Assembly: GCA_003158745.1 (NCBI GenBank)
Contig: PMLC01000067.1
Coordinates: 4,738-50,992 of the forward strand
Direction: 5' to 3'
Source: Acidobacteriota bacterium
Lineage (GTDB): Bacteria > Acidobacteriota > Thermoanaerobaculia > Thermoanaerobaculales > Thermoanaerobaculaceae
Length of the DNA stretch: 46,255 bases
A program made the position numbers and the translations under genes. Position 1 is the first letter of the stretch. The number at the start of each line of letters is the position of its first letter. Shown in pieces: positions 6,777-42,297 of the stretch. The notes under the pieces are model-generated. The model was given only the letters and a program-made list of their open reading frames with translations. It made no database searches and was not told where the DNA came from.

Positions 6777-7649
6777 GTGGGCCAGCTCTTCGCCCTCCTG
6801 ACCGCGGTGATCTGGGCAATCGCCGTGATCCTCCTGAAGAGATCCGGGGAGACAGTGCCCCCGTTCTCGCTCAACCTCTTCCGCGTCGTCGTCTCGACCG
6901 CGCTCCTGGTGCCCACGGTGGCCGTGGCCGGCCAGGCCAGTTGGAGTCAGGGCTCCCTGCGAGACGTCTTGATCCTCTTCGCGAGCGGGATCATCGCCAT
7001 CGCCACCTCGGACACCCTTTTCCACATGAGCCTCAACGCCGTCGGCGCGGGGATCTCCGCGATCATCGACAGCCTCTACGCACCTCTCACGGTGCTGCTC
7101 GCCACCGTGCTGCTCGGCGAACATCTCTCGGCGCGGCAGCTCCTCGGGATGGCGCTCGTCATCACCGGAGTCCTCGTCGCCGCCCAGCATGAGGCTCCCC
7201 ACGGCGTCACTCCGCGGCAGCTTGTCCTGGGCGTAGTGTGGGGCGTCCTCGCGATGATCGCCCTGGCGCTCGGGATCGTGATCGCCAAGCCCGTCCTCGA
7301 CCATTCCCCCGTGCTGTGGGCGACGATCGTCCGCCAGATCGGCTGCCTCGGCGTGATGCTCCCGATCGCGCTGCTCTCGCCGCGCCGCCGCGAGATCTTC
7401 CATGTCTTCCGGCCGTCGCGAGGCTGGCGGTTCTCGCTGCCAGGCGCCATCCTCGGGTCGTACCTCGCGCTCATTTTCTGGATCGCCGGGATGAAGTACA
7501 CCAAGGTCGGGATCGCCGCGATTCTCAACCAGTCGAGCACGATCTACGTCCTCGTCCTGGCCGCGATCTTCCTGAAGGAGCCGTTCACGCGGAGGAAGAT
7601 GCTGGCATCGGTCATCGCCATCGCCGGCATCCTCCTCGTCACCCTCTAG
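6777..7649 (+). CDS. EamA/DMT-family transporter
   Basis: Drug/metabolite-transporter superfamily permease of 290 residues with ten predicted membrane helices in two homologous EamA halves. The first half ends near residue 140 (LLGMALVITGVLVAA) and the second covers about 150-290 (ILNQSSTIYVLVLAAIFLKEPFTRRKMLASVIAIAGILLV). The substrate cannot be read from sequence; the family includes exporters of amino acids, nucleosides and sugars. The start is GTG at 6777: the in-frame ATG at 6756 meets a TGA five codons later, so it cannot be the start. It stands alone between two intergenic repeat regions; a TATTCT box at 6742-6747 is a possible -10, with no convincing -35. Confidence 0.88.
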   Translation: MGQLFALLTAVIWAIAVILLKRSGETVPPFSLNLFRVVVSTALLVPTVAVAGQASWSQGSLRDVLILFASGIIAIATSDTLFHMSLNAVGAGISAIIDSLYAPLTVLLATVLLGEHLSARQLLGMALVITGVLVAAQHEAPHGVTPRQLVLGVVWGVLAMIALALGIVIAKPVLDHSPVLWATIVRQIGCLGVMLPIALLSPRRREIFHVFRPSRGWRFSLPGAILGSYLALIFWIAGMKYTKVGIAAILNQSSTIYVLVLAAIFLKEPFTRRKMLASVIAIAGILLVTL

Positions 7650-7650
7650 T

Positions 7651-7788
7651 GGCGCCGCCGATAGCGGACCATCTGCGTTGTCGGCCTTCGGCGGTTCGGA
7701 TCCTCACATAGCCTCCGGCTATGCTCCGGTCCGACCGCCTCGTCCTCCTAGCATCTGGCCCACTCTCGGCGGCGCGGCTCCACGCACG
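7651..7788 (+). repeat. Structured intergenic repeat, copy 1 (forward)
   Basis: This begins one base after the EamA stop. An outer stem pairs 7652-7664 with 7763-7775 (12 of 13), an inner stem pairs 7690-7700 with 7730-7739 (one bulge), and the tip hairpin CATAGCC/GGCTATG lies at 7707-7723. The part from 7701 aligns without gaps beyond the tip to the reverse complement of 7913-7996 (copy 2), including a shared GGCGGCGCGG block. No ORF is credible here. Confidence 0.65.
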
Positions 7789-7912
7789 CTGCCACCGCCC
7801 TGCACAGGCTGAGTCGTGGCTTCACTGAGCAGGCACCCACGACAAATGCTGGAGCTTCTCGATCTCCATGAACGGCGCTGCGCCACAGTCCTAGGTGGGA
7901 CCTCACAGCACG
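7789..7912. other. Spacer between two facing repeats
   Basis: These 124 bases lie between the two inverted repeat copies. I see no ORF with a start signal, no tRNA-like fold and no clear promoter. Together with the flanking repeats (7651-7788 and 7913-8035) and the tail to 8141 it makes the 492-base gene-free stretch after the EamA gene. Confidence 0.4.
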
Positions 7913-8035
7913 GCGTGTAGCCGCGCCGCCGCCGTTGGGCCTATGGCAAGGCGCGCGAGCCGGTCGCACCGGAGCGTACCCGGAGGTACGTGAGGACAGG
8001 CGAGACGCGGCTTTGCCGCGGCTCGCGGGGGGAAC
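7913..8035 (-). repeat. Structured intergenic repeat, copy 2 (reverse)
   Basis: Reverse-oriented relative of copy 1. Read on the minus strand from 7996, it has the same TCCTCAC flank, a hairpin tip with stem GTACC/GGTAC around a TCCG loop, the same GCTCCGGT-N-CGACCG flank and the same GGCCCA and GGCGGCGCGG blocks. A second hairpin, CGCGGC-TTT-GCCGCG, lies at 8006-8020. The stem differs from copy 1 on both sides but remains complementary. Confidence 0.65.
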
Positions 8036-8141
8036 GGGGGGTCAAGAGCGGCCGGGCGGGCGGTGGAGCGGCCGCGGGACCCCCCGCCCGGATAGCTCCG
8101 GCGAGCGCAACGCAGCCAGAGGTCCGACGCCGGCGGCGCCC
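8036..8141. other. G/C-rich hairpin tract downstream of the 834-residue gene
   Basis: A GGGGGGTC tract (about 8036-8043) is mirrored by GACCCCCC (about 8079-8086), with CCGGGCGGGCGG/CCGCCCGG words between and after them, so the tract can fold into a strong hairpin. It lies just past the stop of the minus-strand gene that ends at 8142. It lacks a clear U-run, so terminator function is only a possibility. Confidence 0.35.
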
Positions 8142-10646
8142 CTACTTGTGCGCGAGAGGTCGAAGCATGAAGAGCTCGACGGTGGGGCGGCGGGGGCCGG
8201 GGGTGGCGAGGGGGTATCCGATGGCCCCCTGCACCAGCGTGCCCCACGGGCCTGGCGCGGTCAGGCCGAACGAGAACCCCGAGAGCGGCTGTGCACGGTA
8301 CTGCCCGGTGATGTCGTGCACCCAGCCGGCGTCCACGCCGGCCTCGGCCCGGATCGTCGGCGAGAGAGGCAGCGCGAGCGACGCCCGCACCACCCCGAGG
8401 CGCTCCGGGAGCACCCGATCCGAGGCGATGCCGCGGATGCGCAGGTCTCCGAAGCGCGACGGCGCCGGCGCCGAGAACCGGTCGAGGTCGTGGCCCGTCC
8501 AGGCCTCAGCGTCGAGGTGCAGCTTGGCCAGCAGGAACACCGCCTTCTCATAGACCACCAGCAGACGGTCGCGCTGCCAGCTCTTCTGCGGCGTCTCGCT
8601 CCCGTCGAGCCCCCAGGCGCGCCAGTTGGCGCGCCACCCGGCCTCGCCCATCAGGCTCGCCGTGACCGGGCCAAGGGCCGCCTCGCCCTGCAGCCGCACG
8701 GTCGGTTCGAACGTCCCCAAGGGCAGAACGAAGTTGGAAGCCGTGGCGTCGTCGCGGGAGAAGTCCAGCCGGTTGAAGCCCACGTCGAGGAGCGCGCGGA
8801 CGACACCCACGGAGGCGGCGATCCCGGCCCCGATGCTCTGGCGCATCGCCTTCACCGCCTGCCCCTTCTGCTCGACCCCTCCGAGGTAGAGGCTGTTGGA
8901 GAAGGGCAGCAGCTGCACGAACGCGCGCAGCGAGAGGTCCGCATCGCCGCGACGCGTCGAGAAGGCGGCGTCGTTGATCACGCCGGCGACAAGGAGGCGG
9001 AGTTGGTCGCCGCGATGGCGAAAGTCGAAGTCCTGAATCTGTATGCCGCCGTACGGCACCGGGATCGAGAAACCCGGGTCGTATGCCGCGCCCGCGATGA
9101 GGAACCGCTGCGAGCGGCCCGTCGTCCCACCGGGGATCCTCCCGCCCCGCCCGTCGGGGACCAGAGGGACGACACCGGCAAGACCGTCCCGGAACATGCG
9201 GTGGTCGCGCGCATAGGCGGCCGCGCGGTCGGGTGCGAAGCCGGGCGCGTCGATCACGAGGCCGGAGAGTTCGAGCTCGCGATGGACGGTCGCCGAGCCT
9301 CCGAACACCGAGAGCAGGTCGTCGGCCACGACATTCGAGGGCAGCCACAGCGTTTCGCCACCGAGCTCGACCGCCCGGTAGGAAGTGACCGAACGAGTCG
9401 CCCTCACCTCGTCCGGGAGGCCCTCTGCAACCTCGTCCAGCTCCACGAGACCGAATGCAGCCGCGTCGATGTATGCGGTGCCGTGACGCGCGGGGCCGCC
9501 AGGGCGCTCATCTGCGAAGGTCAGCGCGTAGCAGCGCCGTCCCTGCCGCTGCTCCACGCCGACAAGCTCGTACCGGTACGAGGACTGCAACCGCAGCGTG
9601 AGAGGCGGCACCGGTGCGCGCTGAGGCTCGAGAAGCGGCAGGTCCGGCAAGTTGTCCGGGTCCCAGCTCACCCCGTCCACCCAGGCGCGGGTGATCTCCC
9701 AGTCCGTGCCGACGGCGTGCTCCCAGAACGCCGGCCCCGCGAGCGCGACCTCGAAGCTGCGTGAGAGCTCCGCCACCCACACCCGGACCAGCAGCCGCTG
9801 CTCGCCGCTCCACCGCGGGGCTACTCGTTCCTGGCGCGCCGCGGCACGCTGGTGGCGCGCCAGCACCTCGGCGGCCGACGGCAACCGCTCGCCGCTTACC
9901 GCGACGTTCTCGAACGCCGCGCCCGCCTCGGCAGGCCTCGCGGCCACGAGCACGCCTCCGTCGGGGAGCGGCGGCAACGCACACGTCGCGCCTGCAGCGC
10001 TCTTCTTCAGCGCCACGGCGCGCCTGCCGTCGGCGAGCAGCGTCGCACCGCCGTACCACGGGCCCGGAAGCACGACGGCTCCGCCGGGAAACCCGGCCGG
10101 GAGCCCGACGACGGTCGCGAGGTCGGCCGGCCGCATCGCCGTCGCAAGCTCGCGGGTTCCGGCTCTGGCGGCCTGCGGCTCCGGGAGCAGCCCGCCCAGC
10201 TCCCCCACCCACGCAGGGTCGGGGTGGCCGATGAGCACGGACGCCGCGCCGGCCGCGAGCGCCGCGACCGCGGCTTCGGGGTCCCCGACGGCAACGACTA
10301 CGGGCATCCCGCCAAGCCGGCCCTGCAGCTCGGACAGCGCCCCTGGTTGCGGCGGGGGCTCGGGCGCAAAACCGTCGACGTACGGCAGGACCGAGGCGGG
10401 CGGCGGCACCGGCCCGACCGCGACCACCGGAACCCGCCGAGCCGCCAACGCAACCGCGGCTTCGAGCCAGCCCTGGCCGGGCTCAGCCGGCGACGCCGGC
10501 AGGAGCAAGAGGTAGCCTTCGGCTCCCTGCGCGGGCAACGGCTCGTCGGCACGGACCACCTGCCACCCGGAGGGCCCCCGGCGAGGATCGGCGATGACCG
10601 GGGAGAGCGCCGGTGCAGCCGCGAGGAGAAGGCTGGCTAGGAGCAT
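8142..10646 (-). CDS. Exported three-part outer-membrane-barrel-like protein of unknown function
   Basis: I do not recognise a named family for this 834-residue protein. It begins with a signal peptide (MLLASLLLAAAPALS). Residues about 20-270 form an Ala/Gly/Val-rich alpha/beta region (VVVAVGDPEAAVAALAAGAASVLIG) resembling a TIM-type fold. Residues about 285-480 resemble the LolA/RseB/DUF4292 half-barrel (YELVGVEQRQGRRCYALTF, then YIDAAAFGLVELDE). From about 505 to the end the pattern is alternating hydrophobic/polar strands with Gly/Asp turns, as in an outer-membrane beta-barrel, although the last residue is Lys rather than Phe. The ATG start is clear. The gene stands apart from its minus-strand neighbour by about 150 bases. 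A cell-envelope role is inference from architecture. Confidence 0.7.
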   Translation of the reverse strand: MLLASLLLAAAPALSPVIADPRRGPSGWQVVRADEPLPAQGAEGYLLLLPASPAEPGQGWLEAAVALAARRVPVVAVGPVPPPASVLPYVDGFAPEPPPQPGALSELQGRLGGMPVVVAVGDPEAAVAALAAGAASVLIGHPDPAWVGELGGLLPEPQAARAGTRELATAMRPADLATVVGLPAGFPGGAVVLPGPWYGGATLLADGRRAVALKKSAAGATCALPPLPDGGVLVAARPAEAGAAFENVAVSGERLPSAAEVLARHQRAAARQERVAPRWSGEQRLLVRVWVAELSRSFEVALAGPAFWEHAVGTDWEITRAWVDGVSWDPDNLPDLPLLEPQRAPVPPLTLRLQSSYRYELVGVEQRQGRRCYALTFADERPGGPARHGTAYIDAAAFGLVELDEVAEGLPDEVRATRSVTSYRAVELGGETLWLPSNVVADDLLSVFGGSATVHRELELSGLVIDAPGFAPDRAAAYARDHRMFRDGLAGVVPLVPDGRGGRIPGGTTGRSQRFLIAGAAYDPGFSIPVPYGGIQIQDFDFRHRGDQLRLLVAGVINDAAFSTRRGDADLSLRAFVQLLPFSNSLYLGGVEQKGQAVKAMRQSIGAGIAASVGVVRALLDVGFNRLDFSRDDATASNFVLPLGTFEPTVRLQGEAALGPVTASLMGEAGWRANWRAWGLDGSETPQKSWQRDRLLVVYEKAVFLLAKLHLDAEAWTGHDLDRFSAPAPSRFGDLRIRGIASDRVLPERLGVVRASLALPLSPTIRAEAGVDAGWVHDITGQYRAQPLSGFSFGLTAPGPWGTLVQGAIGYPLATPGPRRPTVELFMLRPLAHK

Positions 10647-41658: not shown

Positions 41659-42297
41659 ATGCGCCGCATCGCACTCGCTCTGGCAATGTGGCTCGCTGCG
41701 ACGATCACTACCGGCGAGGCCCTGAAAACGCTCAACCTCTCTCGCCCCGCGGAGGGGCTGGCCGAGGTCACCATCAAGGCGGGAATCGGCGACATTCAGA
41801 TCCAGGGCGATACCGGCAATCAGATCACCGTGCGGGTCGAAATCAGGTCCAAGGACGGGTTCTTCTTCAGCGACCGGCAGGCTAAGCGCGAAGTCGAAAG
41901 CACCGACCTCCAGGCTCGCGTGTCCGGCTCCGAGCTGACGCTCTCCCTCACTCCGGAGCAGCGTGACGGCGCGCACTGGGTCGAGGATTGGACTGTGCGC
42001 GTGCCGTCCGCGTCTGGCGTGTCGGTCAAACTCGGGGTGGGGGACATCACGGTGCTCGACCTCACCGGCAACGTGAGGGTCGAGGTCGGTGTCGGGGACG
42101 TCCGGGTCGAGGGGCAATACCAGTCTTTCGGGGACGTGCATGCGGCGTGCGGGGTAGGCGACGTCAGCCTGCGCACGCCGTCCAGCCGCGACGAGGGTTC
42201 AGGGTTCATCGGCCACACGCTCTCGGCTCACGGCCCGGGCAAGTCCACGATCCGGGCCAACGCGGGCGTCGGAGACGTAAAGCTACGCCTCCGGTGA
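41659..42297 (+). CDS. Exported beta-repeat protein, DUF4097-like
   Basis: This 212-residue protein has a signal peptide (MRRIALALAMWLAATITTGEA). The body has recurring G-[IV]-G-D-[IV] turns: AGIGDIQIQG, LGVGDITVLD, VGVGDVRVEG, CGVGDVSLRT, AGVGDVKLRL, which is the repeat style of DUF4097/DUF2807 beta-helices. No enzyme motif is seen. ATG 41659 is supported by GGAGGA nine bases upstream. The stop is followed within a base or so by the palindrome at 42297-42424, in a tail-to-tail junction with the carboxylase gene. Confidence 0.72.
   Translation: MRRIALALAMWLAATITTGEALKTLNLSRPAEGLAEVTIKAGIGDIQIQGDTGNQITVRVEIRSKDGFFFSDRQAKREVESTDLQARVSGSELTLSLTPEQRDGAHWVEDWTVRVPSASGVSVKLGVGDITVLDLTGNVRVEVGVGDVRVEGQYQSFGDVHAACGVGDVSLRTPSSRDEGSGFIGHTLSAHGPGKSTIRANAGVGDVKLRLR

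Follow-up and report, generated by a model that had tools for sequence, protein, structure and literature searches.

Two facing sequences lying between a pair of convergent genes raise the question of what kind of element they represent and whether it acts as DNA or as RNA. They lie in a window of 46,255 nucleotides from an Acidobacteriota bacterium, by which we mean the whole stretch of DNA analyzed. The first-pass annotation had described them as facing copies of a structured repeat, either REP/BIME-like or a structured RNA, without deciding between a DNA-level and an RNA-level function. Both copies and their shared blocks were present in the window sequence, and the reported compensation in the tip stem was confirmed (ATAGCC-TCC-GGCTAT versus GTACC-TCCG-GGTAC). 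The copies aligned without a gap over 74 nt at 77% identity (7712-7785 and 7913-7986), and the similarity was beyond chance, with 43 blastn matches in the genome for each copy and a best non-self E value of 3e-35.

The limits of both copies had to be revised. Positions 7651 to 7786 of the forward strand form a single imperfect hairpin of approximately 125 nt followed by a short tail, with a covariance-model score of 153.8 bits and a folding energy of -68 kcal/mol (z = -6.4). The first unit had been placed from 7701, but its outer left arm, GGCGCCGCCGATAGCGGACCATCTGC, starts at 7651 and pairs with 7751-7775. The second copy, which had been ended at 7996, spans 8140 to 7913 on the reverse strand and had appeared shorter because its left arm is interrupted by 101 nt belonging to another repeat (8097-7997). 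Copy 1 starts 2 nt past the TAG stop codon of an EamA-like gene and copy 2 starts 2 nt past that of an 834-amino-acid gene, which had no Pfam match at an E value of 1e-5. The two copies face each other because these genes are convergent and each carries its own element at its stop codon, so that facing pairs, expected earlier as a property of the family, are a feature of this gene arrangement.

Coordinates of the two copies and of the adjoining stop codons in the window
Feature	Position	Strand	Basis
TAG stop ending the EamA-like transporter gene (6777-7649) and adjoining copy 1	7647-7649	+	ORF list; Pfam EamA, E 3e-40
Copy 1, complete imperfect hairpin, GGCGCC...GGCGGCGC, with the tip TCC loop at 7714-7716	7651-7775	+	Covariance-model match, fold
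Copy 1 tail, GGCTCCACGC...GCCCTGCAC, site of the CTAC/GTAG tag, which is CTCC in copy 1	7776-7806	+	24-copy alignment
Tip stem, right arm, and first part of the tail of copy 2; GTAG tag at 7917-7920, + strand	7913-7996	-	
Second repeat nested in copy 2, ATCCGGGCGGGGGGTCCC...GTCTCGCCTG	7997-8097	-	Genome matches
Outer left arm of copy 2, GGCGCCGCCGGCGTCGGACC...CTCGCCGG	8098-8140	-	Sequence, fold
TAG stop codon of the 834-amino-acid gene (8142-10646), abutting copy 2	8142-8144	-	ORF list

The covariance-model search proposed in the first-pass annotation recovered many further copies whose stem changes pair. A model built from 24 copies (R1) found 42 in this genome (G000) and 2 to 53 in each of the eight other species sampled from the genus, all of which were positive, while other genera of the same family and order had almost none and the family was absent from most of them. 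In the GTDB genomes, an exact 20-mer matched 53 stretches, all from Acidobacteria/Terriglobia metagenome-assembled genomes. A second model (R2) picked up weaker homologues in further families of the class. It also detected multicopy families in other parts of the phylum (f20 and f46), where copy counts are lower bounds, with few candidates scored per genome. No copies were found in plasmids or phages at the sensitivity of blastn, and no Rfam covariance model exceeded its gathering score, with matches at a lax threshold remaining at chance level. We found no earlier description of the family in the open-access collection searched, which omits most subscription papers. In two species of family f20 (L342-L357), the hairpin forms one end of a conserved unit longer than 300 nt, and the far end of this unit, GCATGCCTGTCCAAAAT, resembles Y1-type terminal repeats. 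Additionally, relatives in other families of the class (L242-L244, L046, L048, and L058) carry a further outer stem, about 18 to 20 nt long, that is copy specific in sequence, self-complementary, and begins at the TAG stop.

The fold is conserved well beyond the tip. Among the 24 copies, two-sided changes were found in 22 of the 37 base pairs and 97.6% of the cells were paired, although the copies are kin and these cell counts are thus not independent events; none of 500 shuffles reached the observed pairing, and slid structures likewise came nowhere near it. Two-sided changes were also found in 29 of the 37 pairs when 41 distant homologues belonging to other families in the phylum were aligned; this alignment was fitted to the model and is therefore biased towards the structure. 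The normalized mutual information was 0.76 for paired columns, whose separation reaches 124 nt, and 0.13 for columns 5 to 9 nt apart. The two sides of a stem segment change together, and different segments change almost independently: between two copies behind genes that are 93% alike (L099 and L131), most differences fall in a single segment and affect both arms simultaneously. Two mismatches are invariant (C.A in 102/103 and A.C in 100/103 copies). G-T cells made up 1.2% of the paired positions, compared with 14.8% in 12 tRNAs of these genomes. On the gene strand, G-T cells (47) nevertheless outnumbered A-C cells (24), which hints weakly at selection on RNA and counts against reading the element as a DNA hairpin.

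The copies also have a sharply defined position and orientation. Of 103 copies, 90 lie downstream of a gene that is encoded on their own strand (54% expected) and 74 lie at -2 to +15 nt of the stop codon of that gene (3% expected), the expected values coming from random noncoding positions of the same genome and the genes from a simple codon-usage gene finder that was checked on the window. At the tightest sites the stop codon was TAG in 27/37 cases, compared with 102/257 in the background. The upstream genes are mixed housekeeping genes without a functional theme. In other families of the class, some homologues are found directly at stops (L045, L238, and L239) or about 25 nt behind them (L242-L244), whereas those of f20 and f46 are mostly away from stop codons, and the placement is therefore a trait of this lineage and not of the whole superfamily.

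The two strands of the element are not equivalent. Relative to the upstream gene, the antisense strand folded better in 99/103 copies with RNA parameters, in 94/103 with DNA parameters, and in 41/41 of the distant homologues; the sense strand still folds, with a mean of -73 kcal/mol. On the antisense strand the tip is C(GGA)G, the loops are purine rich, and the invariant mismatches become G.T wobbles, while the unpaired bases on the sense strand are mostly C (41%) and T (32%). The gene strand carries CTAC, which is GTAG on the antisense strand, 5' of the hairpin, in 69/103 copies (67%), with GCAG or GGAG among the others; this lack of invariance counts against a REP-like mobile-DNA reading. 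With its purine-rich loops and tandem G.A pairs, the antisense strand also looks RNA-like, which is a further point against DNA. Overall, the rarity of G-T pairs and the features of the antisense strand favor pairing at the DNA level without proving it, and the choice left by the first-pass annotation leans to DNA on the nearly exclusive Watson-Crick pairing and the better-folding antisense strand.

Mobile DNA of the REP type would be expected from the first-pass annotation to occur with a RAYT transposase gene, and this linkage was rejected. Y1_Tnp genes occur in every species of the genus, but among 28 such loci scanned in nine species none was framed by the hairpin, and the only copy nearby (L031, 438-572) lies behind the stop codon of another gene, with a broken Y1 gene some 0.8 kb away. 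Many of the Y1_Tnp genes (L297-L320, L032, and L033) are instead flanked by inverted repeats that resemble those of TIRYT genes, GGTACCAGGTATCC or GGGGTCAGGCTTGCG, and are unrelated to the hairpin. The 101-nt repeat nested in copy 2 is a second hairpin repeat (also in L322-L329) with 11 matches in the genome. Eight of these lie at one fixed site within other copies of the large hairpin, between GGACCATCT and ATCCGGG, in the same orientation and mostly with CT just before them, while the other three lie elsewhere.

We then compared the elements at the ends of orthologous genes. In 25 ortholog groups from the loci sampled, two to five species bear an element, far above random sharing. The orthologous element was often no closer than any other copy, and gene and element identities diverged widely (99.7% versus 80% in one case and 98% versus 68% in another). 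At several stops, old left-end remnants precede newer copies. Behind the EamA-like gene, we found full elements in G000 and G006, a tipless element in G007, internally deleted elements in G004 and G005, and traces or nothing in G001, G008, and G002. Because an element is retained at the ends of orthologous genes while its sequence is often a different one, we read the sites as persisting while their occupants turn over, by reinsertion or gene conversion. No pair of empty and filled sites with clean flanks was seen, the EamA orthologues having remnants, and this counts against mobility. A role for the elements at synteny breakpoints or as cargo borders was hinted at by the conservation of neighbors (17/46 downstream versus 13/13 upstream) but was rejected as unproven, since in a controlled comparison the next gene was conserved at 5/7 element ends and at 40/57 other transcription unit ends. 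At a convergent pair of rfaE-like and M54-peptidase genes, facing elements are found in three species (L073 with L007, L084, and L121), and the DNA between them differs in each; this, too, had hinted at a cargo-border role.

Several other explanations were weighed against these results. The elements could be cis-acting 3' untranslated region hairpins whose fold is selected in the mRNA, for ribosome stalling or shielding of the message end, with copies spread by duplication. The concentration of copies at stop codons, the stable fold of the sense strand, and its excess of G-T over A-C cells all fit this, and, according to an earlier study cited in PMC12306157, ribosomes stall at E. coli REPs that lie up to 15 nt from a stop codon. 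We nevertheless consider it unlikely, as the mRNA strand is the weaker folder in nearly all copies, G-U pairs are rare, the upstream genes share no theme, many orthologues have no element or remnants only, and homologues in other families of the phylum mostly lie away from stops. A dispersed structured noncoding RNA or mobile RNA gene read from the antisense strand would explain why that strand folds best, with purine-rich unpaired bases and tandem G.A and G.U at invariant positions, and would agree with the hairpin ending the long conserved unit in two species of another family. Against it stand the absence of Rfam matches at either threshold, the absence of a sigma-70-like promoter near the window copies in a sigma-70-type scan, the almost purely Watson-Crick pairing, and the lack of a conserved distance to any gene on the antisense strand, and we regard it as improbable.

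The remaining explanations fared less well. Neutral quasi-palindromes in which template switching between the arms keeps the pairing, without selection, would account for compensatory changes within one genome and for simultaneous swaps of both arms. Such arm-to-arm correction is disfavored as the source of pairing because it would erase mismatches and two of them stay invariant; it also leaves position and orientation unexplained, and we judge it very unlikely. Integron attC sites are structure-conserved hairpins behind genes in which the bottom strand folds, and the elements resemble them in being long imperfect hairpins right behind a gene, in one orientation, with the bottom strand favored and structure kept over sequence. 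A cassette made of gene and hairpin is nonetheless hardly tenable, and attC identity was rejected: no GTTRRRY or RYYYAAC core was seen on reading the aligned ends, the 42 sites do not form dense arrays, and the largely conserved neighborhoods (the same 5/7 and 40/57 ends) do not suggest cassette behavior. Intrinsic terminators, finally, would also be located at the ends of transcription units, but 125-nt interrupted stems are unlike terminators and no terminator-like site with a T run was found in 7400-8400; we rejected this scarcely credible explanation.

To account for the observed fold, covariation, position, orientation, strand asymmetry, and turnover at conserved sites, we favor giant, nonautonomous, GTAG-REP-like mobile hairpins that act as single-stranded DNA, with a probability of roughly 55%. 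The mobile unit would comprise about 155 conserved nt, including the hairpin of about 125 nt, and the functional fold would be the single-stranded DNA hairpin of the antisense strand. In most copies this strand has GTAG before the hairpin, the C(GGA)G tip, the purine-rich internal loops, and the two G.T-type mismatches, irregularities of a kind recognized by TnpA-REP (HUH/Y1) transposases. TnpA-REP requires GTAG on the folded strand, in E. coli also a conserved mismatch bulge, and cleaves at CT beside the hairpin (PMC8266576). We infer mobilization in trans by a Y1 enzyme that would use single-stranded DNA as its substrate. The elements would be set, and reset, just behind stop codons, preferably amber, where they would be harmless; the mRNA would thus end in a strong hairpin beside the stop, and ribosome stalling or message stabilization may be a side effect. 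More tentatively, and with less than even confidence, we propose that the single-stranded DNA hairpin homes to the nucleotides behind stops, so that the same gene ends would be hit repeatedly across species, the element replaced, and the stem changed module by module in both arms together.

The repeats form a real, large, structure-conserved family whose nearest known counterparts are the GTAG REPs. They depart from these in two defining features, size and a linked RAYT gene, and both departures count against the favored reading. The REP-like part of the first-pass proposal stood while the facing pairs and the RAYT linkage did not. ERIC (IRU) sequences of enterobacteria are imperfect intergenic palindromes of 127 bp and are, by description, alike in size, imperfect palindromy, intergenic location, and sites common between species; to our knowledge, neither stop-codon placement nor strand asymmetry has been described for them. 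GTAG REPs and REPINs are likewise dispersed extragenic palindromes with GTAG on one side and conserved stem irregularities, mostly downstream of genes and often less than 20 bp from stop codons (PMC3733652 and PMC8266576). However, the stem described here has 37 pairs versus 5 to 13 and the unit about 155 nt versus 20 to 40 (three times longer), GTAG is present in 67% of the copies, the orientation at stops is single, and no RAYT gene is linked. The TIRYT/TIRtron repeats of Acidobacteria (PMC3733652) are palindromic repeats of the same phylum linked to Y1 enzymes, whereas the repeats flanking Y1 genes here are unrelated to the hairpin.

It has long been asked why REP-type repeats lie behind genes and whether targeting, tolerance, or function is the reason. 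This family makes the question testable, as its position, orientation, and folding strand are far sharper than in textbook REPs and its sites outlive the sequences occupying them. Fast, pair-preserving evolution within single genomes provides a natural system for separating selection on the fold from templated correction, and the patchy spread of homologues over the Acidobacteriota offers independent replicates. At three other gene ends in the window (33958, 41659-42297, and 42428), the stop is followed at no more than about 15 nt by short ACAGTTGACAGT-type repeats, a different kind of repeat that also lies just after stop codons.
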